Below are positions 1,524 through 15,715 of a stretch of DNA of 64,000 bases, piece after piece. The position numbers and the translations under genes are program-made. Location: the NCBI GenBank assembly GCA_009789175.1, contig CP046866.1, positions 992,001-1,056,000 on the forward strand, read 5' to 3'. The number at the start of each line of letters is the position of its first letter. Position 1 is the first letter of the stretch. The notes beneath the pieces were generated by a model. It searched no databases. It saw nothing but the letters and a program-made list of their open reading frames with translations, and was not told the DNA's origin. This DNA is from Salinibaculum litoreum. Lineage in GTDB: Archaea; Halobacteriota; Halobacteria; Halobacteriales; Haloarculaceae.

Positions 1524-1963
1524 TACGATTTGCCACCCCGATTGGTTGGATAGTACCGGTCATCGTCGAAGAGAAGTTCTTCGCCTTCTAGATCGTCCAG
1601 ATGAGCGGTTACTCGCTCAGGAACAGTCCGCATTACATGTCTGATTATCTCATCATACGGAGCACCAGGATTTGCCTTAACAAATTCCTTAATGGTCTGT
1701 CTTTCCCCATTATAGACGGCATCTTCTAGATCCTGGATGCGCTCTCGGGAACGATCGAGCTCTTGTTTCAGTTCGTCTCGTTGCTGTCGAAGCTCACGGT
1801 TCGTTTCATCCGGATTGGTTGAGGCGTCAAACTTCTTCAAGCCTGCTTCAACCATCGCCTCGATAAATTCTGATGTAGACATCCCGAACTCGTTAGCTTT
1901 GGCTGACCACCGATCGTACTGCTGATGTGTCGGATATGTTGCAGCGTGTTTGCTCTCAGCCAT
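1523..1963 (-). CDS. Coiled-coil protein of the recombinase cassette
   Basis: A 146-residue protein. The N-terminus (YDRWSAKANEFGMSTSEFIEAM) looks like a ribbon-helix-helix or short helical DNA-binding segment. Residues about 50-85 are a heptad-rich coiled coil (NRELRQQRDELKQELDRSRE), and the C-terminus (PYDEIIRHVMRTVPERVTAHLDDLEGEELLF) resembles a winged helix. It overlaps the next gene by one base (TAATG). Small coiled-coil proteins accompany recombinase genes in several haloarchaeal mobile modules, so a regulatory or accessory recombination role is plausible. No specific family was recognised. Confidence 0.6.
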   Translation of the reverse strand: MAESKHAATYPTHQQYDRWSAKANEFGMSTSEFIEAMVEAGLKKFDASTNPDETNRELRQQRDELKQELDRSRERIQDLEDAVYNGERQTIKEFVKANPGAPYDEIIRHVMRTVPERVTAHLDDLEGEELLFDDDRYYPTNRGGKS

Positions 1964-1996
1964 AATTCCTTGGAGGGTTTGATTCGTTGTGAGAAG

Positions 1997-2257
1997 CTAT
2001 TCCGAATCGATGAGGAGGAAGCCATCTTGGACTCGGACAGTTGCTTGGTCAGTTGTCTCAGGATCTATCCCTTGCTTCTCCAGTTCTTCGGGTGTCAGAA
2101 AGATTGGGAGCCCTATCGTCCCCCACTCCTCTGTCCGGTTTATTTCAGCTTTGCGTACTACCTCGTCCACTGAGTGGGTGTTTTTCGGAACGATTGCATC
2201 GATGTGCCGTGTTGGTTGTGGATGCTGACTATTATCGTCCTCTGTTGCTCCATCCAT
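1997..2257 (-). CDS. Small AbrB-like hypothetical protein
   Basis: An 86-residue acidic protein starting at ATG 2257. A TTG two codons upstream is possible but less likely. The C-terminal half (GTIGLPIFLTPEELEKQGID, then TVRVQDGFLLID) has the rhythm of a SpoVT/AbrB swapped-hairpin domain, which usually binds operator DNA. It is the first gene of the minus-strand cassette leading to the recombinase, with a TATA box about 20 nt upstream. It may control the cassette. Family assignment is tentative. Confidence 0.5.
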   Translation of the reverse strand: MDGATEDDNSQHPQPTRHIDAIVPKNTHSVDEVVRKAEINRTEEWGTIGLPIFLTPEELEKQGIDPETTDQATVRVQDGFLLIDSE

Positions 2258-2277
2258 ACTCAAGAATATAATCTGGG

Positions 2278-2285
2278 TATATAAA
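2278..2285 (-). promoter_or_regulatory. TATA box of the recombinase cassette
   Basis: On the minus strand this reads TTTATATA, about 20 nt ahead of the ATG at 2257, as expected for a near-leaderless haloarchaeal transcript. Confidence 0.5.
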
Positions 2286-2316
2286 TAATCTTTGTAAATA
2301 TGGTTTTATACCCATT

Positions 2317-2335
2317 ACTACGAAAGAGTCGTAGT
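2317..2335. repeat. Inverted repeat in the 2258-2666 intergenic region
   Basis: ACTACGA and TCGTAGT (7-bp arms, 5-nt loop) lie in an AT-rich 400-bp gap between divergent genes. It could be an operator or a weak terminator. The rest of the gap shows only AT-rich promoter-like DNA and a repeated CCTCTAAA near 2512-2527; no gene was seen. Confidence 0.35.
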
Positions 2336-2666
2336 GAATTATGCTAAAATAGATGGGATTGATAAATTCGACTGGGCGCAGTCGCGGCATTTTGGACATT
2401 CCATTGTTTTCACTCAAAATGTAGACATTTGATGTCTGGAGTGTCGCCCGTAGAACAGATTTGGTGCTCTCATATGTAAGATATGGAATAAATTTTAAAA
2501 GCTTATTTCTTACCTCTAAAGCCTCTAAATCTCATATTCTTGGCTTTCGCTTTTCTGTCTGATTTCCCCTTAAGTACTGATTTGTGCAAGTATAAGAAAT
2601 CTAGATTTCCGAAACTGTAGTTTCCGAAATCGGGAGTTCTATTTGCGCGGGGAAGCTACTGGGAGT

Positions 2667-4049
2667 ATGGAGCAATTCGTTGATCGGGATACCGAGCTCG
2701 ATCAACTCACAGACTGCTATGAGTCCGGGACGGCAGACTTCGTTGTGATCTACGGTCGCCGTCGTCTCGGGAAGAGCGAGCTCGTCCGCCAGTCCATCGC
2801 GGATCGGGATGACGCCGTCTACTACCAAGCGGTTGAATCGACTGCACAGAACCAGCTCGAACAGTTCACCGACACAGCCACCGCAGAGTTCCCCATGTTG
2901 CGGAACGTCCGCCGTGACTGGGAGGTACTCCTTGAAGCGCTCGGCAATCAAGACGCTATCGTCGTCATCGACGAATTCCCATTCCTCATCGAAGAGGACG
3001 AATCCCTCCCTTCACGGCTCCAACGCGTCTGGGACATGGAACTGCAGGAGACAGGGATGACACTCATCCTCGTCGGCTCTTCGATTAGTGTCATGGAGAA
3101 CAAGGTGCTCTCCGGAAGCGCACCGCTGTACGGTCGGCGGACGGCAACAATCGATCTCCAGCCTCTCGATGTACCCGACGCACGCCAGTTCTTCTCAGAG
3201 TACGGTCCGGAGACAGCAATCACGACGTGGTCGATCTACGGTGGCACTCCCTACTACCTCCAGACGATCGATCCAGACCAGTCGCTCGGAACGAACGTCC
3301 AGCGGACAATCCTCTCAGAGCGCGGGCTCCTGTACTCCGAACCCGAGTTCCTACTCCGCACCGAACTCCGACAGCCGAACACGTACTTCAGCATCCTCCG
3401 CGCGCTCGCTCACGGGCGTCGTACTCCAAACGAGATCGCAGGTATGGCCGGCGTAGATTCGGGATCGCTCAGCACGTACCTCCAAAAACTCCGTCGGCTC
3501 CGCCTCGTCGAGCGCCACATCCCCGTGACTGAATCGCCGACAGCCTCGAAACGCGGTCGGTATCGCATCGCCGCGCCGCTGTTCCGGTTCTGGTTCCGAT
3601 TCGTATACGGCAATCAGGATCAGCTTCACATGCTCGGCGACGACGCGTACGCCGAACTCGTTGCACCCGACCTGGCAGATTACGTGAGTCCTTTGTTCGA
3701 ACGCCTCTGCCAGCAAGCGCTCCCGAAGCTCATTGACCGACAGTTCCGCGATGTCGGGCAGTGGTGGTTCAAAGAACACGAATTGGATGCCATCGGTCTC
3801 ACAAACGAGGGACTCGTCACCGGCGAGTGTAAGTTCACGTCACAACCCGTGAGTGAAGGTGTTCTCGCCGACCTCGAACGAACAACGGCTGAAGTACGGT
3901 GGTCAGAAGAGCCCGCAGATGGAGAGACGCTGTACGTCTTGTTCAGCCGCTCCGGTTACACCGACGATCTCGAACGCGTCGCCGACACGCGTGATGACGT
4001 GCTCCTCTTCGAACTGTCCGATCTGGTCACTACTGATACGAACGCGTAG
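2667..4049 (+). CDS. Archaeal AAA ATPase with C-terminal DUF234-like nuclease-fold domain
   Basis: A STAND/AAA-type archaeal ATPase of about 460 residues. Walker A is GRRRLGKSELV near residue 35 and Walker B is AIVVIDEFPFL near residue 100. A winged helix follows (NEIAGMAGVDSGSLSTYLQKL). The C-terminal DUF234-type domain carries ELDAIGL...GECKFTSQPV, a PD-(D/E)XK-like D...ExK pattern. Such proteins are common in archaeal mobile and defence regions, but their substrates are unknown. ATG 2667 is chosen because the protein then starts MEQFVDRDTELDQL, the usual N-terminus; the earlier TTG at 2643 adds a non-conserved tail. It stands alone and converges on the next gene. Confidence 0.85.
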   Translation: MEQFVDRDTELDQLTDCYESGTADFVVIYGRRRLGKSELVRQSIADRDDAVYYQAVESTAQNQLEQFTDTATAEFPMLRNVRRDWEVLLEALGNQDAIVVIDEFPFLIEEDESLPSRLQRVWDMELQETGMTLILVGSSISVMENKVLSGSAPLYGRRTATIDLQPLDVPDARQFFSEYGPETAITTWSIYGGTPYYLQTIDPDQSLGTNVQRTILSERGLLYSEPEFLLRTELRQPNTYFSILRALAHGRRTPNEIAGMAGVDSGSLSTYLQKLRRLRLVERHIPVTESPTASKRGRYRIAAPLFRFWFRFVYGNQDQLHMLGDDAYAELVAPDLADYVSPLFERLCQQALPKLIDRQFRDVGQWWFKEHELDAIGLTNEGLVTGECKFTSQPVSEGVLADLERTTAEVRWSEEPADGETLYVLFSRSGYTDDLERVADTRDDVLLFELSDLVTTDTNA

Positions 4050-4066
4050 AAGGGAGTGCCGGTCGC

Positions 4067-5392
4067 CTACAGGAACTCATCAACCGTGACGTCTCTCCAG
4101 TCAGGGAGGACGTTATTCAATTCCTCTCGGCGGAAGATTCCGTCTCTCGTTCCGAATACCGCCCGAATATCATCCAGATTCAAGTACGGTTCCCGGAGGC
4201 GGAGTACCATGAGATCTTTTAGTAAATCGGCGCTGAGGAATACGATACTCTCTACGGCGGTTGTCTCCCGAAGTTCACGCAGTGTACTGTGGTCTGGATT
4301 GGTGAACGTTGAGGACACGATAGCGAAATAGATGCGGCGAACGCCTTGATCGCGTAACTGCCGGGCGTGCGTCTCGATGTACTCCCGAATTGCTCGGTCG
4401 TCCGTGGCGATGGAATAGCCGTCACTGCGGACTTTCGCGTCGTAGATGATGGCGTAGTCGTTTCGAACGGCAGTAGCGATACCGTCAGGCTGGCGACCGG
4501 AGCCCTGCCCAAGTTCTTCGACGTCGAAGCCGAGGATTCGGAACGAGTGGTGGAGCTTCTCCTCAAAGACGACGGCTAAATCTCTGTCTTGCTCTTCATA
4601 TTCTGCTTCAACCGCACCATCCCGTTCTGCGACAGCACCCAGATCGGAGACGATAGTTGGGAGGAAGCTAGCGAGAACATCTTCTTGCTGAGAACTTCCC
4701 GTCGGATCTACGTCCTCCTCCTCATCGGCTTCCCACTCTGGGCGGAGTTCTTGATCCCAGTAGATCGCATTCGAGATATCTCGGTATTCCCAGTCGGTGT
4801 CGGTCGTTTCTGTGGCAAGGTCGATTAACGTGTCAAGTGCTTCGATGAATTCGACGTAGTCCTCACCGTATTCTCCATCCTGTACGAACCGGTCGTGATC
4901 CTCTAAGTAGTGTTCGCTCGTGACGTAGAAGACGGGATACTCGGTCGGCGCTTGAAGATGCCAGAAGTAACTGAGAAAGAACATCGCGGGCTTGTAACGA
5001 GGCTCTGCGTCGATGCTATTGTCGCGGTAGGTTTGCGCCAAATCGGCATGCGCATTGATTCGCTCCGCAGCTTCGTCCCTTGATTCGGGATTGGGGAGAA
5101 TCTCACGCAAGTGGGCAGCGAGTTCCTCCTGATCGGGAGTTGCGTTCCACATCTGGTTGAAATGCATCTGCCCGTTGAACCCATCAAACCCCCAGTACGG
5201 GTGTTGCTTGTTGAGGCCGTCGTTGCGCGGCTTGAACTCCTCAAGCGTGATCTCTCCATCGAGAAACTGATTCAACAATGGAAGGAGACGTTCGTCCCGC
5301 ACCTGGTCGCGCTTCTCGTTCCGCTCACGGTAACGCGATTGCGCTCGATCACTCTCCAAGAATGATTCGAACAGATCTGTAGGTGCAGTCAT
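4067..5392 (-). CDS. Nuclease with FokI-like cleavage domain
   Basis: A protein of about 441 residues. The last 140 residues match the FokI cleavage domain layout: GSGRQPDG, then YAIIYDAKVRSDGYSIA (metal-binding D-x-K, as in FokI DTK...GGYNL), then AIREYIETH, VRRIYFAIVSSTF and a C-terminal LNLDDIRAVF resembling LTLEEVRRKF. The first 300 residues are helical, include HFNQMWNATPDQEELAAHLREIL, and show no known DNA-recognition domain. The N-terminus may recognise DNA or a modification while the C-terminus cuts. No methyltransferase is adjacent. ATG 5392 is used; another in-frame start 12 nt upstream is possible. Confidence 0.75.
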   Translation of the reverse strand: MTAPTDLFESFLESDRAQSRYRERNEKRDQVRDERLLPLLNQFLDGEITLEEFKPRNDGLNKQHPYWGFDGFNGQMHFNQMWNATPDQEELAAHLREILPNPESRDEAAERINAHADLAQTYRDNSIDAEPRYKPAMFFLSYFWHLQAPTEYPVFYVTSEHYLEDHDRFVQDGEYGEDYVEFIEALDTLIDLATETTDTDWEYRDISNAIYWDQELRPEWEADEEEDVDPTGSSQQEDVLASFLPTIVSDLGAVAERDGAVEAEYEEQDRDLAVVFEEKLHHSFRILGFDVEELGQGSGRQPDGIATAVRNDYAIIYDAKVRSDGYSIATDDRAIREYIETHARQLRDQGVRRIYFAIVSSTFTNPDHSTLRELRETTAVESIVFLSADLLKDLMVLRLREPYLNLDDIRAVFGTRDGIFRREELNNVLPDWRDVTVDEFL

Positions 5393-5519
5393 TACTTCTC
5401 CCATCTGTCGGTGGCGTCAAAAATATACATGGCATGAACTAGTGGACGTTACAAGCTCAGATGAGAACTGAACAGTCACGCAAAGAAGGGGTTATAGATA
5501 TTCGACGACTAGCTGATTG

Positions 5520-6707
5520 TCACCGGGATTTCCTCTGCACTACCTCAACATCAGCGCAGGTCGGGATGTGCTCAGTATAGCTTGAAATTGAGGATCCACA
5601 CCACTCACAAGTCTGTTCCCGCTGAAGTGCCGCCTCCTTATCAATCGTCTGTCGGCAGTGGAGACAGTGATCCATCTCTCGTGGTGTTTGTTGATGACAC
5701 CGCGGACATTCAACTGGAGCCGTGGCATCTGGTTCATCTTCCTCATCAATTTCTAAGCCGTGGACACGAGCGACTTCTCGACCCGTATCGTCTGCAAACA
5801 CGGACACGTATCGGGAAGCGACGTCGCTTCCGCGAGTCCAGCCATGATGATCTTCGATGTGGGCTTGATTCAGGCCGCGAGAAGCCAAGTGAGACGCACT
5901 GGATTTGCGGAGGTTCGTAAATGTGACCGGTTTATCCACTCCTGCTCGGTCAGCAGCATCCTTCACGGCCGTTCGAAGTGCATTATAACTCGGTGCCTCT
6001 GGCTTGGTCAATTTGCTCCAGAGAGGTGACTTAGGATCATCGCTCGGATGGGCAGCGAGCCATCGTTGAAGAAATGGGACACTCGGAATAAGAGGAACTG
6101 TCCGCTGCCCCATCTTTCCCTGTACCGTGATCTGATACCCATGCTCGTAGTCCGTAACATCACCGACCGTGAGGGCGCGAAGTTCACCGGAGCGGGAACC
6201 TGAATCCCACCCAACCGCGATGAGTGCTGCATCACGGGGGTTTCGGGTCGCTTTGATCAATGGGAGCACGTCCTCCTTCCACTGAAGCATATTACTGGGT
6301 TCAGGCGCTGGGTCGTACGTACTCGGTGTGTTCGACGGAATCCACCCCATCGACTCGGGTGGATCATCTCCGTTCTGGTCAGTGACGCGCCGTCCGAACT
6401 GCTTCAGCGCGACGCGGTAATCACGGTTGGTCTCTGCATTGTCGTATGTACGGTGAATCCACCGGACAATCTCTTTCGCTGCATCCTCACTTTCGAGCGC
6501 GTCTACCGGACTACCAGCATGCTCCACCATCCTCACATTATGTCGGAGAAGCTTGATATGTCGTTGATCTCCGACTTGGCTGGGAATGAGGAAAAGTTCG
6601 TTACTGAACTCCAGCAGTGCATCACGATTTGCTTCGTCCAGCTTTCGGTCGTCGTTTCGGATTTTCTCTCGAAGCGTCTCAATTTGACTGTCGGCGTTCT
6701 TTGTCAT
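5520..6707 (-). CDS. Tyrosine recombinase with C-terminal zinc ribbons
   Basis: A 395-residue phage-integrase family protein. A core-binding domain is followed by the catalytic domain with DSGSRSGELRAL (first Arg), GKMGQRTVPL (Lys strand), TFTNLRKSSASHL (an Asn replaces the usual His of H-x-x-R), HHGWTRGSDVASRYV (third His/Trp and the Tyr nucleophile). The last 60 residues carry CPRCHQ...CLHC and CEWCGSS, zinc ribbons seen in haloarchaeal XerC/D-like proteins. It shares its architecture with the recombinase at 16755 but is diverged. Start ATG at 6707. Confidence 0.88.
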   Translation of the reverse strand: MTKNADSQIETLREKIRNDDRKLDEANRDALLEFSNELFLIPSQVGDQRHIKLLRHNVRMVEHAGSPVDALESEDAAKEIVRWIHRTYDNAETNRDYRVALKQFGRRVTDQNGDDPPESMGWIPSNTPSTYDPAPEPSNMLQWKEDVLPLIKATRNPRDAALIAVGWDSGSRSGELRALTVGDVTDYEHGYQITVQGKMGQRTVPLIPSVPFLQRWLAAHPSDDPKSPLWSKLTKPEAPSYNALRTAVKDAADRAGVDKPVTFTNLRKSSASHLASRGLNQAHIEDHHGWTRGSDVASRYVSVFADDTGREVARVHGLEIDEEDEPDATAPVECPRCHQQTPREMDHCLHCRQTIDKEAALQREQTCEWCGSSISSYTEHIPTCADVEVVQRKSR

Positions 6708-6889
6708 TAGCGCACCAGCCAGGCTTTAGATTGCAGGACGGGCGAATTTTTTGCCAACTTGAATCCAATAGTCTGCCCAGAGGACAATCACTGATGTCAT
6801 CCGGATATGATGCTATCAGACGGACTGCTAACAACAGAAGCTAATAGAGCATTCTGCGACGCTCACTGAGTACATTGGTCATACTCCAT

Positions 6890-7780
6890 TTATCGATTCT
6901 TCTCCAGAGTTTGTTTGAGGGCGGAATTCGCGGCACTCCGCATCTGCCACAGCCGTGGAATTGCCAGATCGTCTCGGTCGAGTATCCCTTCGGCATCCCC
7001 CTTATCTGGGTGTTTCACTCGGTTGACCATCTCGAGCCACGCCTCGGCATCCTCCACGTTCATTCCGGTACACTCGGCTATCACCTGATCCTTTTCGTAG
7101 CGTCCGGGAGAGAGGGTGTTCTCGCAGACGTAGTAGAAGTTCGCCGCAGCAGTCCAGAGATCCGACGACAGTGCGTCGTCATACATATGTAGCGCAACAC
7201 GGATATCGGCCTCTGTATCTGATTCGATCCGTTTTGAGCGGTACTCCCGGACGTCTCGATACACGGGAACAACGTCCCCGACAATCTCAACTTCCTCTGG
7301 AATCTCGTTCATTCCGAGTAGCGCTGTCGCAAAGTTGCCTATGGAGAGGTGAGACTGGAACTCCAGTGCACCCCTCTTTGATGTGTATGCTCCCGAGACC
7401 ACTTGACCGGGACTTTGAGAGAAGAACACTGGGTCATCGGTACACAAATTAAGCGCAATCAACAAATCGAAGATGTCTGCGTGATCTCTGAGAGGCGGCT
7501 CTAGCGTTTCTAAGAAGTTCTCGATAACAATCCACCAGTGACGACTCGGGTGGTCTACAGATTCCTCCACACGGATCTCACGGTCACTAGTGACCACTTC
7601 CTGACCGTGATACGCTTGCTTGTTGACCCAGAGATCGAACGACTCGGTCTGTCGAAATTCCAAGTGATCCCCATCGTAGTGCACCGTTTGAACTTCGTCC
7701 GCTTTTTGGTCAACCTGCGACTGATTACCTGTCCGGATCTGACTCAATGGTCTAAGATAAGATGGAACGTACGTGGTCAT
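6890..7780 (-). CDS. Hypothetical protein
   Basis: A soluble acidic protein of 296 residues, not recognised. The C-terminal third (ADIRVALHMYDDALSSDLWTAAANFYYVCENTL) is helical and recalls HEPN-like or nucleotide-sensor helical bundles, but no R-x4-6-H motif is present. It is divergent from parA (166 bp between starts), so the two may share a regulatory region. Confidence 0.6.
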   Translation of the reverse strand: MTTYVPSYLRPLSQIRTGNQSQVDQKADEVQTVHYDGDHLEFRQTESFDLWVNKQAYHGQEVVTSDREIRVEESVDHPSRHWWIVIENFLETLEPPLRDHADIFDLLIALNLCTDDPVFFSQSPGQVVSGAYTSKRGALEFQSHLSIGNFATALLGMNEIPEEVEIVGDVVPVYRDVREYRSKRIESDTEADIRVALHMYDDALSSDLWTAAANFYYVCENTLSPGRYEKDQVIAECTGMNVEDAEAWLEMVNRVKHPDKGDAEGILDRDDLAIPRLWQMRSAANSALKQTLEKNR

Positions 7781-7866
7781 CCCATCGAACTACCTAGTCG
7801 AGAAACAATAGCGTTCGCGTCAGCATCAGGATCCAATATATGATGGCGTTATTCACCCTATGAAAG

Positions 7867-7911
7867 ATCTAATGCTCTAGTATAACTGGTTAGTCTAACT
7901 ACTTGGTCTAA
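7867..7911. promoter_or_regulatory. Putative parA operator or partition site
   Basis: A perfect 11-nt palindrome GTTAGTCTAAC (7889-7899), with further TCTAA half-sites near 7867 and 7906, lies 50-80 nt ahead of parA. ParA systems often bind such repeats for autoregulation or plasmid partition. The role is inferred from position. Confidence 0.4.
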
Positions 7912-7946
7912 TTATCTTTTTACGTAAGCATAACTTGTGTGTATAC

Positions 7947-8780
7947 ATGCTCACGTACACGACGTACTCTGAGGCTGGGGGCGTCGGGAAAAGCACTCTC
8001 GCCGCGAATCTCGCAGACGCTCACGCCCAGCAAGGACGCGACGTTCTAGTCATTGACTTAGACCCTCAACAGGGTTCCTTGACATACCTACTGGGAATCT
8101 CTGCCCCTCGTGACAACGGGGAAGCTGACAACATCGCTCGGCATCTCATTGACCGACCAAAGGGAAATTTCGATGACCTCGTTCACGAGACTCCTTACGG
8201 TTTCGACATCGTCCCTTCCCACAACATGCTCGAAAGCCTGCCGAAGCTGTTGTCAAAGGCAGAAGAAATGGCTGAGGATCTAGGTGAATCATTCACTCCG
8301 AATGACCGCCTCCGAGAAGTCTTGGTTGGGGCGAAAGTCCCAGAGAACTACGATACAATTATCGTCGATCCACCTGCGACAGCTGGTCCGCACTTGTATA
8401 ACGCTGTAGCTGCAACCCGATCGCTCGTCCTCCCCGTTGAGCCCACTGGAAAGGGCATCCAGTCCGTTGAAGGGATTCAGGATATGGTCGTAAATCTTGA
8501 AGACGCATTGGAGATTGATGTCGGTGTGCTTGCGATCGTCCCAAACGGAATAGGAAAAACAGCGGATCGAGACCAATACTTAGAACAGATTCGAGAACTG
8601 GGACACAGCGCTCCAGTCGCGTTACGCGACAGGTCATCGTTATTCGATGGTTGCTGGGATCAGCGCTGTACAGCCTATCACTACGTAGGTTATCACCGGA
8701 ACCGACGGCGAGATTACGAGGTCGAAACACTGGACAAGTTACGTGACCTTGCAGCGCATATCGCGGAGGTGGGCGAATGA
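7947..8780 (+). CDS. parA: ParA-family partition ATPase
   Basis: A ParA/Soj-type deviant-Walker ATPase of about 277 residues. It would move plasmid copies apart at cell division together with a DNA-binding partner. The deviant Walker A is EAGGVGKSTLAANLADAH near residue 10, Walker A' is VLVIDLDPQQGSL and Walker B is YDTIIVDPPA. ATG 7947 is preferred; a TTG four codons earlier is in frame. Its stop overlaps the ATG of the next small gene by 4 nt, as expected for a parA/partner pair. Confidence 0.9.
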   Translation: MLTYTTYSEAGGVGKSTLAANLADAHAQQGRDVLVIDLDPQQGSLTYLLGISAPRDNGEADNIARHLIDRPKGNFDDLVHETPYGFDIVPSHNMLESLPKLLSKAEEMAEDLGESFTPNDRLREVLVGAKVPENYDTIIVDPPATAGPHLYNAVAATRSLVLPVEPTGKGIQSVEGIQDMVVNLEDALEIDVGVLAIVPNGIGKTADRDQYLEQIRELGHSAPVALRDRSSLFDGCWDQRCTAYHYVGYHRNRRRDYEVETLDKLRDLAAHIAEVGE

Positions 8781-9214
8781 CAGACGGCATGAAATCAGGC
8801 TCTGGGAGCGATCCGTTCGCCAATGAGTCCGACGACAGTACATCAGAGGATACAGACAATGCCAATCAAGAGGAAGAATCGATCGGCAGAACACAGCCGG
8901 ATGCAGAAGAGCAAAAAACCACGTCTGAGACTCGGTCATCTACCTCTTCAGCCGCATCTGATCGGGAAGAACTGCCGTATATTTTCGCCAGGAGTAATGT
9001 CAAGGCTGATCGAACGATGGTGCAGTATTTTCTACGTGAGGAAACGGAACAAGTTGAATCCGATGTGGAACGTAGACTTGAACAGGAACTTGGGACCGAC
9101 GTGTTGCTGACCGATATCCGTGAGGCACTCGTTCGTGTTGGAGCACACCACTTAGACGAAGTCGCTGACGAACTTCGAGATTGGGGATACCGCTACGAAG
9201 AAGACTCAAACTAA
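8777..9214 (+). CDS. Small acidic ParA-partner protein
   Basis: A 145-residue protein. Its first 70 residues are low-complexity, acidic and Ser/Thr-rich. The folded C-terminal part (VKADRTMVQYFLREETEQVE, then LTDIREALVRVGAHHLDEVADELRDWGY) is helical. It is coupled to parA by an ATGA overlap and so is likely the partition adaptor or ParB-like partner. No ParB/Spo0J motif is visible, so the role is inferred from position. Confidence 0.65.
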   Translation: MTDGMKSGSGSDPFANESDDSTSEDTDNANQEEESIGRTQPDAEEQKTTSETRSSTSSAASDREELPYIFARSNVKADRTMVQYFLREETEQVESDVERRLEQELGTDVLLTDIREALVRVGAHHLDEVADELRDWGYRYEEDSN

Positions 9215-9654
9215 AACTCCCTCAATATCGGCACCATCCGCTAATTCTGAAAACCACATCTCAGATATCAATTATGCTGGTGTCGGGTGGTTCCAAATAA
9301 GGCATTGCAGCTTTCAATTACGGAACTATATCCCATTTGTATCTGTCTGGGATTTTCTACTCAGCAGCTATTGGGCTTACAGCTCCGTTGTAATTCAAAA
9401 TTTGAGATCGCGTTGTAAGAATCAATTAGCCCGCAACACCATCCTATCCTTCGATTACAAGGGACCCATCGTACAGTTCAATACATACAGATACTGACAC
9501 AGCTTGTTTTGGAGGAAGTCTTCCAGAGTGAAAATGTGCTCCGGAACGGGTTCTAGCGGTGAAAAACACGGGAATAGCGCGTTCAAAATAGACCAGTATA
9601 ACTAGTGTACTGTCCCCCATTCAGGGGCGGGTAGCGGTAGGTCTGGAATCCAAA
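9215..9654. other. Intergenic stretch without recognisable features
   Basis: 440 bp between the convergent parA operon and the 9655 gene. No gene, RNA or repeat could be supported here. Confidence 0.5.
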
Positions 9655-10893
9655 TTACCAATTTATCGATGTTATTTCGGAGTGAGTGAGTTCCGGGCCA
9701 TCTTGGCCGAAGAGTTGTTGTTTGAGTTTCCACGTCGTCGTCCAGTCAGCGACCACCCAGTCGTACTGGGGATCTTGATATGCGGTTTCGATCTGATCGC
9801 GCCCATTCTCGATACTGTAGTCAGACTGAAATGGTCCGTTTGGTAGCTCTCCAAGTCCTTCTCTATGCCAGTGGTTGAATACTGAATACGCGGTTGAACG
9901 GGAATCAAAGACTGCAATCGGCTTGGTTCCGTTCTGAGCGAGAATCTCCATTTTCTGGTACGTATTCCGGTGAAGCTGCCAGTTGTTATGGCCTGTGAGT
10001 ATTTCATATGCGTGCCTCTGTCCGTCATTGTCTGTCCCGACAGCGTCGAGCGTATACGTCCCCCAGTCAATATACGAGCCATATCGCCATCCGCGAAGCG
10101 CGTTGCGAAGGCAGACGAGTCCGACAGTAAGGCGGTGTGTGAGGCCTTCCATAGGATCGCCATGAAGTCGTGGGAGGTCGTCGTGGTTTTTGAATAGTTT
10201 TCGTGCTTTATGAGTGAGGTCGTACCAGACTTGTTTGCGGAACACGGTTGTCGGCTTCAGAAACCCGGTCGTCGCCTCGAACCAGTCAGCATCACCGAAG
10301 GCGAGTAGCGTTTCTCGTCCGAGGTTCGTGTTGTAGTAGAGTCGCCTCAACGTGTTCTCATCGAGACCTGTTGTAAGATGAGTAATGCTAGGGGCTTGGT
10401 CTGCGAGGAGGTGGACACCACAGACCGTTTCGCCGTTCCAGAGCTTTGCGATTCGCGTCAGCAGTTTTTTCCGGTTACCGTTGAGAGCGACAGTCTGATC
10501 AATTCCACCTCGTACGCGCTTCTTCGCTTGCCGCTTCCATTCTTCGGGGGGTATACCCCGTGGCCGCGGAGGATTTAGCGGATCGTATAAGAAGCGATTC
10601 TGGAACTGGTTCTTCGTGTACCATCGTAGCGTCGGCCGTTCAAACGTATTTATTGTCAGTATGTGTTTGAGATCCGGATCTGGTTTTGTAATGTCGAAGC
10701 CAATCGAATCTGCGTCGTATTCCTCGTTATCTCGCGGAATCCGATGCCCGTTGGGACGTTCTTCATCAGGTCGTACTGGGAACACCTCGAAAGCGCATGG
10801 ATGTTCGGGATGCGGAGTACCGGCTCTCCCATAGAGAGGTGCACCGTATGGCCACTTGTCATTGGTAGCTGAATCAAATGGACTCAATCGCAT
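9655..10893 (-). CDS. wHTH protein with possible PD-(D/E)XK-like C-terminus
   Basis: A 412-residue protein next to partition and replication genes. The middle (LDENTLRRLYYNTNLGRETL...FRKQVWYDLTHKARKLF) looks like a winged helix. The C-terminal part has YTLDAVGTDNDGQRHAYEILTGHNN followed by YQKMEILAQNGTKPIAVFDS, which resembles the D...E-x-x strands of PD-(D/E)XK or replication-relaxation proteins of plasmids; the expected Lys is not obvious. It may belong to plasmid replication or transfer. Function unproven. Confidence 0.6.
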   Translation of the reverse strand: MRLSPFDSATNDKWPYGAPLYGRAGTPHPEHPCAFEVFPVRPDEERPNGHRIPRDNEEYDADSIGFDITKPDPDLKHILTINTFERPTLRWYTKNQFQNRFLYDPLNPPRPRGIPPEEWKRQAKKRVRGGIDQTVALNGNRKKLLTRIAKLWNGETVCGVHLLADQAPSITHLTTGLDENTLRRLYYNTNLGRETLLAFGDADWFEATTGFLKPTTVFRKQVWYDLTHKARKLFKNHDDLPRLHGDPMEGLTHRLTVGLVCLRNALRGWRYGSYIDWGTYTLDAVGTDNDGQRHAYEILTGHNNWQLHRNTYQKMEILAQNGTKPIAVFDSRSTAYSVFNHWHREGLGELPNGPFQSDYSIENGRDQIETAYQDPQYDWVVADWTTTWKLKQQLFGQDGPELTHSEITSINW

Positions 10894-11205: not shown

Positions 11206-11227
11206 CTCACCCCGGATTTCGCACGTT
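11206..11227 (+). repeat. ORB-like element, copy A
   Basis: CTCACCCC, two bases, then ATTTCGCACGTT. It matches copy C at the origin in 20 of 22 positions and copy B in 20 of 22. The complementary strand has a G-run (GGGGTGAG) beside a core, the general look of archaeal origin recognition boxes. Confidence 0.55.
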
Positions 11228-11367
11228 AGACTGTTTTTCCGAAGGGAGTCTAATCTAAATGAGTCGTGAACTACCCAAACGACAGCTCTCTCTGGTCGAA
11301 TACGGTTGATAGCCAAATGACAAGTATTTTAGGTGTATTTGTTAAAAAATGATGCTATTAGAACACA

Positions 11368-11389
11368 CTCACCCCTGATTTCGTACGTT
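11368..11389 (+). repeat. ORB-like element, copy B
   Basis: CTCACCCC, two bases, then ATTTCGTACGTT, followed by CCACTGATTT. It has the same orientation as copy A, 162 bp away. Confidence 0.55.
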
Positions 11390-11685
11390 CCACTGATTTC
11401 CCACCGGGTGGTCTGAGAGTGGGTTCCCTATTTCACTAATGAGAGCGTATCACAGAAACACAATCAGGAGGCTTCTTTCGACAATAGACGATTAAATCGT
11501 CCGGTCAGTAAGTATGCATAGTCAGAATTCTTGTTTGGGCAAATGAGCGTATTCGCAGGGGGCCCACAAGCAAATGCTGAGTTGTGCCACGAAGGAAGCC
11601 AGAACAGGTTTAGATCGAATCAAAAACTCTCTTATACGCAGCTAATGAGCGGTCTTAAATGAAAGTAGAATAAAGGAAGGTTTCG

Positions 11686-12594
11686 ATGGGAGGTACACGT
11701 GAGGCGTTCCTTAAGGTCTCCTGGGTGAACGTTCTCTTGAACGCCCTCAAAATCGTTGTCGAGGGTTCAATTGGTCTCCTCACTGGGAGCCTCGCACTCA
11801 CCGCCGATGCAGCGCACTCCGTTGCTGACCTTCTCGCAAGTGGGGTTGTCTTATTTTTGGGACGGTCGGTTCACGAAGATGCCGACGACTCACATCCACA
11901 CGGCCACGACCGATTCGAACCGCTCTCCGCACTCGTCGTCGGTGCGGTTCTCGTTCTCCTCGGACTGAAACTACTCTACGATTCCGGCCATTCGATCTTC
12001 ACCGGCGTCACTACCGGGTACAGTGTTTGGCTGGTCATCGGCCTCCTGTTCGCACTTGGTGATATGTACGTCTGTTACTGGTACACCCAACACGTAAACC
12101 AGCGACTCCAATTGCCAAGTCTCCGCGCGCTTGCTGCGGACAGCCTCAACGACCTCTACACAACTGGTGCGGCCCTTGTGGGGGTACTTGCGATGGCGGT
12201 CGGCTATCCGATTTTCGACCCGATTGCCGGCGGAATCGTGAGCCTGCTTGTTATCCACCAGGGAATCGAGATTTCGCGGGAGAACGTCCAATATCTCGCG
12301 GATAGCGCGCCCCCGGAGTCGGAGCAAGCGGAAATCAAAGAGCAAGTGCGTGAGCATCCCGCGGTCCACGGCATTCACGATTTCGTCGCCTACTACTCCG
12401 GGCACGTCATTGAGGTAGAGTTTCACGCCGAAGTGGATCAGGACATGACAGTGGTCGAGGCCCACGACATCGAATCAGAACTCCGCAAGCGCGTCCGCGA
12501 CATCGACCCGGTTTCAGACGTTCACATCCATCTCGATCCGGCTGGCCTCGGTGAATGGGAAGACGCCGATGATGCTACTCCTACCGGGAGCTGA
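11686..12594 (+). CDS. Cation diffusion facilitator (CDF) metal transporter
   Basis: A 302-residue membrane protein of the CDF family, which exports divalent cations such as Zn, Fe or Mn in exchange for protons. Membrane segments begin near residue 10; the metal site motif HSVAD (H-x3-D) is in TM2 near residue 45, and a His/Asp loop (DDSHPHGHDRFEPL) follows. Further segments are LSALVVGAVLVLLGLKLL, VWLVIGLLFALGDMYVCY and a second D-x3-D-like region (LAADSLNDLYTTG). The cytosolic C-terminal domain (HPAVHGIHDFVAYYSGHVIEVEFH) is the usual dimerising ferredoxin-like fold. It sits between the ORB-like motifs and the origin, apparently as cargo. Confidence 0.9.
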   Translation: MGGTREAFLKVSWVNVLLNALKIVVEGSIGLLTGSLALTADAAHSVADLLASGVVLFLGRSVHEDADDSHPHGHDRFEPLSALVVGAVLVLLGLKLLYDSGHSIFTGVTTGYSVWLVIGLLFALGDMYVCYWYTQHVNQRLQLPSLRALAADSLNDLYTTGAALVGVLAMAVGYPIFDPIAGGIVSLLVIHQGIEISRENVQYLADSAPPESEQAEIKEQVREHPAVHGIHDFVAYYSGHVIEVEFHAEVDQDMTVVEAHDIESELRKRVRDIDPVSDVHIHLDPAGLGEWEDADDATPTGS

Positions 12595-12721
12595 CACAGC
12601 ACAAGTATAGTGACCGGGCGACTCAGGAAATGGGTGGCGAGATACACAGACTGCTGTGCTGACTAAACCCTCTGTATCGATCACCCACGGATTACCCGTA
12701 CGGGGTCGAGAACGATCCTAT

Positions 12722-12734
12722 ATCACACTGTGAT
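12722..12734. repeat. 13-nt palindrome downstream of the CDF gene
   Basis: ATCACA-C-TGTGAT is a perfect inverted repeat in non-coding DNA. It may be an operator or an origin-associated site; nothing else supports a role. Confidence 0.3.
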
Positions 12735-13058
12735 GTAGTTTCTAAACCCAGTGCTGGGAGGGTGGAAACGTCATCAAACAACCTTGACACGGCTGCCGTG
12801 AGAAGCACTCTCTTGTGGAAAAGAAGCACAAACAAGGGAGAAGTCTCTCGTGATAACCAAGTCAGCAGCGGGGATGAAAGATATTGGAACGATTGAGAAT
12901 TGTCGAGATCGTGTTTCCCGCGCATCACCTCCAATATTTAAATAGAGTGAGTTCTCAAAACCACACTACACAAATACCGGTAATAGCGTCTCTAGGGCAA
13001 GTACCCACATACATATATTACCTATACCATAAGATATATAATATAATAAAGGGCCCTA

Positions 13059-13113
13059 TGAGACGGTTACAGAAACCAGGTCCTCCATAACTCCACAGGA
13101 GCAAACCGTCTCA
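13059..13113. repeat. Origin inverted repeat I
   Basis: TGAGACGGTT (13059-13068) and AACCGTCTCA (13104-13113) are perfect 10-nt arms. Between them lies a small palindrome-like CTCCACAGGAG. A likely initiator-binding or structural element of the origin. Confidence 0.6.
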
Positions 13114-13187
13114 GAGTCAGACAGTCGATACAGTCCCTCTACATCATTTATCTTAAACGGAGTTCTGGATCTTCTTTCGATTCTTCA

Positions 13188-13236
13188 CCTCACCCCCTCC
13201 CCCAATAACCAGAAACGTGCGAAATAGGGGGTGAGG
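13188..13236. repeat. Origin inverted repeat II containing ORB-like copy C
   Basis: CCTCACCCCCT (13188-13198) pairs perfectly with AGGGGGTGAGG (13226-13236). The right arm is part of ORB-like copy C (13214-13235, minus strand: CTCACCCC, CT, ATTTCGCACGTT), the same 22-nt motif found at 11206 and 11368. Confidence 0.6.
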
Positions 13237-13362: not shown

Positions 13363-14457
13363 ATGACACTCTTCAAGACCAGACAACCATTCCGTGACGG
13401 ATACGAGCCCGAGACGATCATTGCGCGTGATGAGACCATCTCCAAACTGACTAGTGTTTTCCAGGAGTTCGTAGACGGTTTCTGCGTGCCCCATCTGTTT
13501 GTTCGTGGAGACCAAGGAACGGGTAAGCGAACGGTTATCCACCACGTCCTCACTCTCGCTGAACAGGCAGTTGAGACAGAGATTGAAGCCGTAACGATCG
13601 ACTGCGGCGAGCACGAGTCCCTCTACCAGATCTATCTCGAACTTGCCTACCGGCTTTGTGAGGATGACTATCCGAGAGGGACGCATCAGATGGATTTAGA
13701 GGAGGCGATTTTCCAAGAGATGTCGGATCCTGGTGTTACGTGGTATATTCTATTGGAGAACCTCGAAGCACTTGGGAACGACAACCTGCCGTTCCACGAG
13801 TTGCAGGACGGTCTCTCAGAGTACGGAACGGATCACACTGAGTGTGGTATCATCGGGATCTCCAACTCGACTGGCCTTCATGACCACCTCTCAGGTGACG
13901 TCCTCCACAAACCAGACATGTTTACCGTAAAGACGAATCCATACAAGGCCACCGAACTACGAGAAATCCTACAGCAGCATGCAGAAGTAGCGTTCATCGA
14001 CGACGGGTTCTCTGAACCGGCAATCCAACTCTGCGCGGCAATCATCGGACAACAAACGGGGAGCGCAGCCGACGCCCTGCAATTGCTTGAACTCGCCGGC
14101 TATGTGGCCTCTCAAGCTGACGCAGACCAAGTGACAGAAACTCACGTTCAGACCGCGAGAGAAGCCCTTGATTCACTACGCCTGTACACCACCTTCACTG
14201 AGGAGCTTAATCCAAGGGAACAACTCTTGTGTACGATCATCGCTGCGCATAACGAAGTAGACGAGAAACTGGTTTCAACGGAATCACTCGTAGACGAATA
14301 TAAAGAACATCATGTATCGTTCGACCTTGCGACCATTGGGAAGCGACGGATTGAAGATTCCATCGTGAATCTCCGTGAGAAAGGACTTGTACACGCTCAG
14401 GACCGGAATACCGGCCGAAACGGAGGAATGTGGTTAGTATATGAGAGCGTGTCATAG
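13363..14457 (+). pseudogene. orc/cdc6: Orc1/Cdc6-type initiator, 3' end displaced by an IS
   Basis: AAA+ replication initiator of the Orc1/Cdc6 family, 364 residues as it now stands. Walker A is VRGDQGTGKRTVIHHVL near residue 50. Walker B is weak (TWYILLENLEAL, lacking the normal DDxD/E). Sensor-region GIIGISNSTG and a C-terminal winged helix follow (LSTESLVDEYKEH region, then IGKRRIEDSIVNLREKGLV). The current end (YESVS) is encoded by the IS terminal repeat. Joining the flanks across one target-duplication copy restores the frame: TAT GAA ACT continues into 15514-15715 for about 67 more residues. The wHTH is retained, so the shortened product may still work. It lies directly beside the origin-like region. 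Confidence 0.85.
14439..14444. repeat. Target site duplication, left copy
   Basis: ATATGA immediately before the IS, matched by ATATGA at 15508-15513 after it. Confidence 0.75.
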
Positions 14458-15507
14458 AATCCATCTCATAGCTTCTCGCAGCCCGGATCGTTTCCGCGTT
14501 CGTAGTTGGTGATTGCAACGACGAGTCGCAGGCAGAGCGCAACGAACACTTCTGTTCGTGCGTGGACGCGGCCTCGGGCGCGGACGTGCCCGAGGCCGCA
14601 GTCCTTGACCGCGTCGTTGGTTCGTTCGACGCCTGTTCGGTCGTTGTACGTCTTGTCCAAGATGGATTGTTTCAGCTGAACGTCCTCGCTGTGTTCCTCG
14701 ATACGGTCTTCGACCCTGTACTCGATATCGAGTGGATCGTCGGTGTTTCGCGGGTTGTACGGAGCGATTGGCACGACCCCTGCGGCCAGCAGGTGGTCGT
14801 GCCAATCGAGGATATCGTACGCGCTGTCTCCAAGCATCCAGATCGGTGTGTCGACGGCGAGCGCGTCACGCGTGACGCGCATCGCCGTCTCTCGATCGGC
14901 TTGTTTACTCTGTGTGAACTCCGCTGCTATCGGGATCTTTGCGCCGGTTGAGACGATCGTACAGCCGAAGCCGTAGTAGTACTCCTCAGCTGTTGGATCG
15001 TAGTTCCACGAGGCAGCGTCGTTGTATTGGATCGCTTCGATGTGGGTCGAATCGATAGAGTACGTGGAGTCGAGCAGGCCGCCGTCCGCGGCCTGCTCGA
15101 CGAGCCTGTCGAAGACATCGTCGACGACGTGTTCGAGGTCGGTGAGAAAGCGGTCAACGGTGTCTCTGGATGGCGGTTTGTCGAGTCCACAGTAGTACCA
15201 GACGAGGCTGTACTGGAGTTCTCGTGTCACCGGGCGTGTGCCGTAGATGTTCTTGTAGTAGCAGTGGAGGAATCCTCGGAAGAGATCTGGTGGCTGGTGA
15301 ACTCGTGTTCGCCCCCGCTTCGAGGGGGCGAACACGTCGTACTCCAAGAGAAACTCGAACTCAAGGTGTTCGAACAGCGGCACTGTCTCGGTAGCCGCCG
15401 CATTCAAGAAGTCGTCTATCGATGCTACGTCTTGCAGGGCGTTGGTGCTGCTGGACACAGTTTCCAAACCCTGCGGCCTCCCTTGGGAGGCTTTCTATGA
15501 CACGCTC
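14445..15507 (-). mobile_element. IS5/IS4-superfamily insertion sequence, 1063 bp
   Basis: Bounded by terminal inverted repeats: the left end GAGCGTGTCATAGAA and the right end, read on the minus strand, are identical for 15 nt. It is flanked by ATATGA direct duplications. It carries one transposase gene on the minus strand. It inserted near the 3' end of the orc1/cdc6 gene. The element looks intact and recent because the ends and duplication are unmutated. Confidence 0.88.
14466..15467 (-). CDS. DDE transposase (IS5/IS4 superfamily)
   Basis: A 333-residue cut-and-paste transposase. The N-terminal helical part (DLFRGFLHCYYKNIYGTRPVTRELQ) is followed by the DDE catalytic domain: first Asp in YSIDSTHIEA, second in WMLGDSAYDILDW, Glu in DRTGVERTNDAVKD. 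Full length and free of stops, so probably active. The coding region fills most of the element. Confidence 0.88.
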   Translation of the reverse strand: METVSSSTNALQDVASIDDFLNAAATETVPLFEHLEFEFLLEYDVFAPSKRGRTRVHQPPDLFRGFLHCYYKNIYGTRPVTRELQYSLVWYYCGLDKPPSRDTVDRFLTDLEHVVDDVFDRLVEQAADGGLLDSTYSIDSTHIEAIQYNDAASWNYDPTAEEYYYGFGCTIVSTGAKIPIAAEFTQSKQADRETAMRVTRDALAVDTPIWMLGDSAYDILDWHDHLLAAGVVPIAPYNPRNTDDPLDIEYRVEDRIEEHSEDVQLKQSILDKTYNDRTGVERTNDAVKDCGLGHVRARGRVHARTEVFVALCLRLVVAITNYERGNDPGCEKL

Positions 15508-15715
15508 ATATGAAACTACAGTACCGCCACGCTTGCTTCTCCGCTCGGCGAACGCAACGTCAGGCCGATTCACCCGATTACTCCGCAAGTACGACGTGTC
15601 GCTTGACCGTCTCAAAAACCCGGACGAGGTAGATATTGAAGAATTCCTATCAAACGATTGGTCGTCGGAAGACATCGATTTTGACCTCCAGAAATTGGAT
15701 TTCTACCCGACGTAA
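15508..15715 (+). pseudogene. Detached C-terminal end of the Orc1/Cdc6 protein
   Basis: In frame with the truncated initiator once the IS and one duplication copy are removed. It encodes YETTVPPRLLLRSANATSGR... ending ...LDFYPT, about 67 residues with a helical, acidic tail. It has no start of its own except an ATG inside the IS end (MTRSYETT), so it is probably not expressed separately. Its 3' end overlaps the convergent next gene by 13 nt. Confidence 0.75.

Follow-up and report, generated by a model that had tools for sequence, protein, structure and literature searches.

A probable orc1/cdc6-adjacent replication origin of a haloarchaeon, split by a transporter gene and served by an Orc with degenerate ATPase motifs

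Haloarchaeal origins adjacent to orc/cdc6 genes consist of an orc gene beside inverted origin recognition boxes (ORBs), G-strings and an AT-rich element, and the ORB sequence is specific to the Orc family (Wu et al. 2012, PMC3528665). In oriC1 of Haloarcula hispanica the elements follow each other in the order C-string, ORB, inner G-rich repeat, AT-rich DNA, inner C-rich repeat, ORB and G-string. This origin depends on both of its ORBs and on both G-strings, and its inner repeats have an enhancer role (PMC3936714). Two further loci of this species are relevant here. One is oriC2D, a stretch rich in ORBs (11 sites) that lies apart from oriC2, downstream of cdc6E, and exerts negative control on it, probably through titration of Cdc6E (PMC3936714). 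The origin oriC3-cdc6D is interrupted by a putative transposase, is inactive and has been called deficient (PMC4441112). Among the initiator proteins, Saccharolobus Orc1-1 remains able to drive oriC1 and to load MCM when mutated in Walker B (E147A; PMC9738581).

The window, i.e. the whole stretch of 64,000 nucleotides that was analysed, contains a locus with the same components. The orc gene is directly adjacent to an array of at least two inverted ORB-like sites that flank an AT-rich element, a G-string is found at the ORB end, and the ORB sequence is linked to the Orc family. Unlike in the origins of PMC3528665, the left arm lies beyond an unrelated gene and thus outside the adjacent intergenic region surveyed there. 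The features of the putative origin are the following.

11206-11227, plus strand: putative ORB copy A, left (distal) arm; exact motif, 20/20 specified bases identical in Halovenus (flanks ~84%)
11368-11389, plus strand: putative ORB copy B, left (distal) arm; exact motif, 19/20 specified bases kept in Halovenus (flanks 78%)
11518-12935, no strand: variable spacer, cargo without homology to its Halovenus counterpart; blastn alignment of the window with locus L040 stops at 11517 and resumes at 12936
11686-12594, plus strand: CDF (cation efflux) transporter gene, cargo (PF01545, PF16916)
12991-13050, no strand: AT-rich element between the ORB arms, 73% AT, candidate duplex unwinding element
13188-13198, plus strand: inner arm of an 11-bp inverted repeat, CCTCACCCCCT, exact inverted copy of 13226-13236
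13214-13235, minus strand: putative ORB copy C, right (proximal) arm; exact motif, 20/20 specified bases kept in Halovenus
13363-14457, plus strand: orc1/cdc6 initiator gene, last codons and stop derived from an insertion sequence (PF22703, PF13191, PF09079, TIGR02928)

Most likely (probability about 0.8), A, B and C serve the adjacent Orc1/Cdc6 as origin recognition boxes and belong to one origin, with A and B as its left arm and C as its right. This assignment of the arms follows from an inverted layout kept throughout a clade of related loci and from a strict association with their Orc. Only copy C is located in the intergenic regions flanking orc. Since A and B lie beyond the CDF gene, the locus is classed as a split variant and not as a regular haloarchaeal orc-adjacent origin.

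The preliminary description of this DNA had reported three copies of a 22-nt ORB-like motif, and all three match CTCACCCCNNATTTCGYACGTT exactly. No fourth site is present in the 64-kb window at up to three mismatches, and dinucleotide shuffles contain a mean of 0.01 matches per window at this threshold. At up to three mismatches the three sites are also the total of the whole genome (3,732,358 bp in three contigs). Thus, the even genome-wide density that would have spoken against the motif is not observed. As described, the core (CGAAAT/AACG) is unlike the GGAAAC-type core of the better known haloarchaeal ORB (PMC3528665).

The 11-bp inverted repeat at copy C is likewise present. Its right arm, AGGGGGTGAGG at 13226-13236, is the G-string of copy C and faces outward. 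Copy C and the repeat place an inner C-rich arm, the core and an outer G-string in the order known from Haloarcula hispanica oriC1, whereas that origin is compact and has a different ORB sequence and an Orc of another family. A G run is found ~18 nt inside the site, after the core, across 26 sites of the clade, which makes the inner repeat a general feature, if a weaker one. Copy C is located at -149 relative to the orc start codon (the gene begins 128 bp downstream of the copy), and a TATA-like box of orc follows ~60 bp after the copy. Of the two 60-bp windows with the highest AT content in the region, only the element at 12991-13050 lies between the arms. The outlying copies are found ~1.8 kb away beyond the transporter gene, as stated earlier; B and C are separated by 1,824 bp, with the CDF gene as the single gene in between. 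The sign of the GC skew does not change at the origin, a result that is neutral as to firing. Scans for bacterial-type promoters and terminators gave nothing above shuffles; such models do not apply to archaea. No tRNA genes are present in the window, and no Rfam matches at 10-14.5 kb.

The locus had been assumed to lie on a plasmid. This premise is not supported, as the locus is part of contig C1 (3,315,991 bp; the window spans C1:992001-1056000), and the replicon is therefore either the main chromosome or a chromosomally integrated element. The genome belongs to the same family as Halovenus. The host genome encodes 11 Orc genes, one of them with a canonical inverted ORB pair. The oriC1-like Orc of the host provides an internal control: its inverted pair is compact (267 bp apart), and the G-strings point outward. 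Beside another Orc of this genome (L057, G000:C1:697000-709000), copies of its own ORB, ACACTCGAAACCCCGTGGGG, form a long tandem array with ~105-bp spacing. This array is located ~0.2-1.0 kb upstream of its orc and one more copy 2.3 kb upstream.

In Halovenus rubra R28 (L040) an Orc 88-89% identical to the window Orc is accompanied by the same three sites in the same layout, at 4597 (plus), 4757 (plus) and 5850 (minus). The spacing from A to B is kept (162 bp in the window, 160 bp in Halovenus), and one C is missing from the C-run of the Halovenus copy B. The spacer differs: an unrelated 141-aa MarR-like (HTH) gene is found in place of the CDF gene. The arms are 1,071 bp apart in Halovenus, and 411 bp remain once the cargo is subtracted. 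The corresponding value for the window is 406 bp (128 + 278).

The Orcs of the window and of Halovenus belong to a clade of eight members (support 100/100). The six others (G280, G331, G440, G532, G390 and G210) were found by whole-genome searches and are 33-52% identical to the window Orc (G532, 49%). All eight loci share the ORB CNCMCCCC-NN-ATTTCG-NN-CGTW, with the CCCC run kept in 25 of 26 sites. The layout is also common to all: plus-strand copies upstream, minus-strand copies adjoining orc, G-strings pointing outward and an AT-rich element inside (60-bp windows with 72-85% AT, 8/8 loci). The distance between the arms varies, with 385 bp in G532, 488 bp in G390, 900 bp in G210, 922 bp in both G440 and G331, and 1,662 bp in G280; the window has the widest gap. 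No convincing gene lies between the arms of G532 or G390, which surround the AT-rich element and have all ORBs in the intergenic regions flanking orc. In the Orc tree, unsplit G532 is sister to the groups of the window, Halovenus and G280, and G390 comes next. The compact form is therefore likely ancestral, as judged from the tree. The outer position of G210, which is widened too, rests on a long branch.

The preliminary description had suggested that the origin was once larger or was split by insertion of cargo. Splitting agrees with the compact relatives, with the unrelated genes in the same slot of the window and Halovenus, and with a third lineage in which insertion sequences (IS) occupy the spacer. 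In G280 one of these is a 731-bp non-autonomous IS with inverted repeats GRCTCTRTTGAAATCCTC (L049, reverse-complement positions -1142 to -412 from orc). It is flanked by an 8-bp target duplication TCTCTAGT, the left copy with one mismatch, and the site is empty in its sisters, including G440. A once larger origin is only half right, because the unsplit relatives have one ORB per arm.

In the window and in Halovenus the cargo separates the left arm from the AT-rich element. G280, G440 and G331 differ in that their AT-rich element is close to the left arm, with the remnant of an IS240-like transposase between this element and the right arm. This difference in placement indicates independent insertions in the two groups. 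Depending on the lineage, the cargo is a CDF transporter gene (window), an HTH gene (Halovenus) or IS elements, and two relatives have no gene. These comparisons mark the spacer between the ORB arms as a recurrent insertion slot. In G440 an XPB-like helicase gene adjoins the origin; in G280 a TnpB-like transposase gene interrupts this helicase gene (L049 7411-8649, L050 5581-6993).

Relatives of the CDF gene with 76-85% identical DNA are present on four haloarchaeal plasmids. No orc was found near the gene on the three of these plasmids that were inspected, as expected of a cargo gene. The CDF gene was also the only match of the origin region in a blastn search against plasmids. A tblastn search of the Orc against PLSDB found, among the matches listed, only Orcs of at most 31% identity, and the viral contigs searched contained no relative.

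The specificity of the motif was assessed with the consensus CNCMCCCCNNATTTCGNNCGTW in 392 genomes of the order. At least two sites are present in all seven genomes with a clade Orc, always at the orc locus, and single sites in 2 of the 385 genomes without one (Fisher P ~1e-13); the consensus was derived from the same clade, so that only its absence elsewhere is independent evidence. The reversed pattern, used as a control, gave zero matches. The two lone matches (L128 and L127; G345 and G416, one genus) fall within open reading frames, more than 1.5 kb from any Orc, and are probably due to chance or coding. The earlier proposal of a motif specific to one initiator is supported: the motif stands beside all eight clade Orcs and other Orc subfamilies carry other ORBs. 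The more distant Orcs of G270 and G296, for instance, have the different ORB CACACCCC-NN-ATTGTAAGTGTT.

Forty other Orc loci were scanned for inverted C-rich pairs. Such pairs were found in 18, a scan that misses diverged pairs because it requires the CCCC run and at most three mismatches, and the inner gap is below 750 bp in 16 of the 18. Wide spacing is thus uncommon outside the clade, though not unique to it. One of the two wide exceptions (L085, G034:C1:806013-811313), with an Orc of a different family, has a 158-aa gene between its right-arm ORBs; its orc has matches of identical score on two contigs, C1 and C2.

The window Orc comprises an AAA+ core, a Cdc6 lid and a C-terminal winged helix (Pfam matches over cut-off). 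It resembles Saccharolobus Orc1-1 (PDB 2qby_A) in fold, as judged by a phmmer match over residues 3-354. The 3' end of its gene is damaged by an insertion.

14445-15507, no strand: IS element in the orc 3' end, with a DDE transposase gene (14466-15467, minus strand; PF01609) and 14-bp terminal inverted repeats GAGCGTGTCATAGA
15509-15715, plus strand: severed orc C-terminal tail, open frame of 68 codons; its translation contains LLLRSANATSGRFTRLLRKYDVSLDRLKNPDEVDIEEFLSNDWSS and matches the Halovenus tail

The IS element (1,063 bp) is flanked by a 6-bp target duplication, ATATGA, at 14439-14444 and 15508-15513. The window Orc stops right after the wing of the winged helix and lacks the last ~66 residues, whereas the Halovenus orc is whole. 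Owing to the loss of these codons the local origin, and with it replication from this site in the strain, may be dormant.

This damage bears on the strongest of the alternatives, which we consider less likely: a nonfunctional split origin, switched off either by the cargo that landed between its arms or by the IS in orc. Other origins would then replicate the chromosome, and the sites would be fading relics. The inactive oriC3-cdc6D of Haloarcula hispanica (PMC4441112) provides a precedent of an origin interrupted by an insertion, and the other Orc genes of the genome, one next to its canonical inverted pair, may provide further origins. Unlike oriC3-cdc6D, the locus described here is split in two genera, each with its own cargo, and its sites have been conserved. 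Of the specified ORB positions, 59/60 are identical between the window and Halovenus, compared with a noncoding background of 83.7% (P ~0.001 by resampling of windows, only approximate because the resampled windows overlap), and each copy is better conserved than its flanks. The orc gene is under purifying selection (dN/dS 0.24, window vs Halovenus). Conserved sites together with this selection indicate that function persisted well after the two lineages parted. Furthermore, spacers are widened in 6 of the 8 clade loci, and an arm is lost in none. The IS damage itself is recent, since the frame of the severed tail has remained open and conserved.

That A and B form a separate cluster, which titrates Orc and restrains the origin in the manner of oriC2D (PMC3936714), is rather improbable. 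In both cases ORBs are parted from the main origin by a gene. The many sites of oriC2D are downstream of cdc6E and act negatively, whereas here two sites are found upstream. Moreover, the same plus-strand site is the only left arm in G532 and G390, at 385-488 bp from the right arm. These differences set the locus apart from the oriC2D type.

The active site of the Orc raises a different question. The window Orc has GTGKR in place of the GTGKT of Saccharolobus Orc1-1 (2qby_A), and LLEN in place of VLDE. In all eight clade members Walker A reads GKR and Walker B reads LEN, LEH or LNN with the DE gone, whereas GK[TS] and D[ED] are kept in 36/36 other distinct Orcs, including others of the same genome (two mis-extracted rows excluded). 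The clade is therefore predicted to have lost ATP hydrolysis. In addition to the full-length C-terminus, the window Orc thus lacks the intact Walker motifs of an active Orc1/Cdc6 initiator; with the Walker A Thr, the Walker B Asp-Glu and the last ~66 residues missing, it might not act as one.

The clade could accordingly consist of DNA-binding regulators like Saccharolobus Orc1-2, a known non-initiator Orc (PMC9738581), with the ORBs as operators of orc and its neighbours. The position of copy C upstream of the TATA-like box would suit an operator. Inverted arms and the AT-rich element are kept in every member, whereas operators would not need them, and the gene beyond the left arm varies by lineage (a 412-aa protein or an XPB-like helicase). 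Scattered sites are absent from the genome. Moreover, Orc1-2 needs intact Walker motifs, whereas the Walker B mutant of Orc1-1 still drives oriC1 (PMC9738581), so initiation is compatible with a loss of hydrolysis. In Orc1-1 E147A this loss is laboratory-made; in the clade it would be natural and clade-wide, and it also affects the Walker A threonine. A regulator clade is therefore quite improbable.

The upstream neighbourhood has a history of its own. Identity between the window and Halovenus rubra is ~100% from 1551 to ~9900 and then ~75-98% across the ORBs and orc. The sharp drop at ~9900, to ~80-95% over the next 4 kb, implies that the parA block and the ORB-orc block differ in history. 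By this identity profile, the ORB-orc block shares one older history, and the parA block (1551-9900) was exchanged very recently between the genera. The gene for the 412-aa protein (9655-10893, minus strand) is conserved in Halovenus, and its product has no Pfam, NCBIfam or plasmid match. It is very improbable that the sites have nothing to do with Orc and act as the centromere of the ParA system (7935-8780; parA and a small partner gene 2-3 kb upstream) or as operators for the gene of the 412-aa protein, because across genera they track orc and not the neighbours and because the ~100% identical parA block is separated from the ORB-orc block by the identity drop.

For the single split origin, the following course of events is proposed. 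The left arm would once have been located ~400 bp from the right arm, before the transporter gene landed between the left arm and the AT-rich element. Orc would bind both ORB arms with their outward G-strings and would melt the AT-rich element at ~12991-13050; loading of MCM by Orc would follow. The split origin could then still fire, with an initiator that would work without normal ATP hydrolysis.

Two observations go beyond routine annotation: the inter-ORB spacer is repeatedly used without loss of an arm, and an Orc clade has degenerate ATPase motifs. Surveys of haloarchaeal origins examined ORBs only in intergenic regions touching orc. Gene-split origins would therefore score as a single ORB and be called deficient, and this locus is a guide to recognizing them. 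More tentatively, a clade of initiators might have lost its catalytic ATPase residues and yet run origins, with the spacer as a landing site for cargo, a flexible arm spacing (0.4-1.8 kb) and an initiation that is not reset by ATP hydrolysis. The eight loci provide a natural experiment on the distance tolerated between ORB arms and on the need of an archaeal initiator for ATP hydrolysis.
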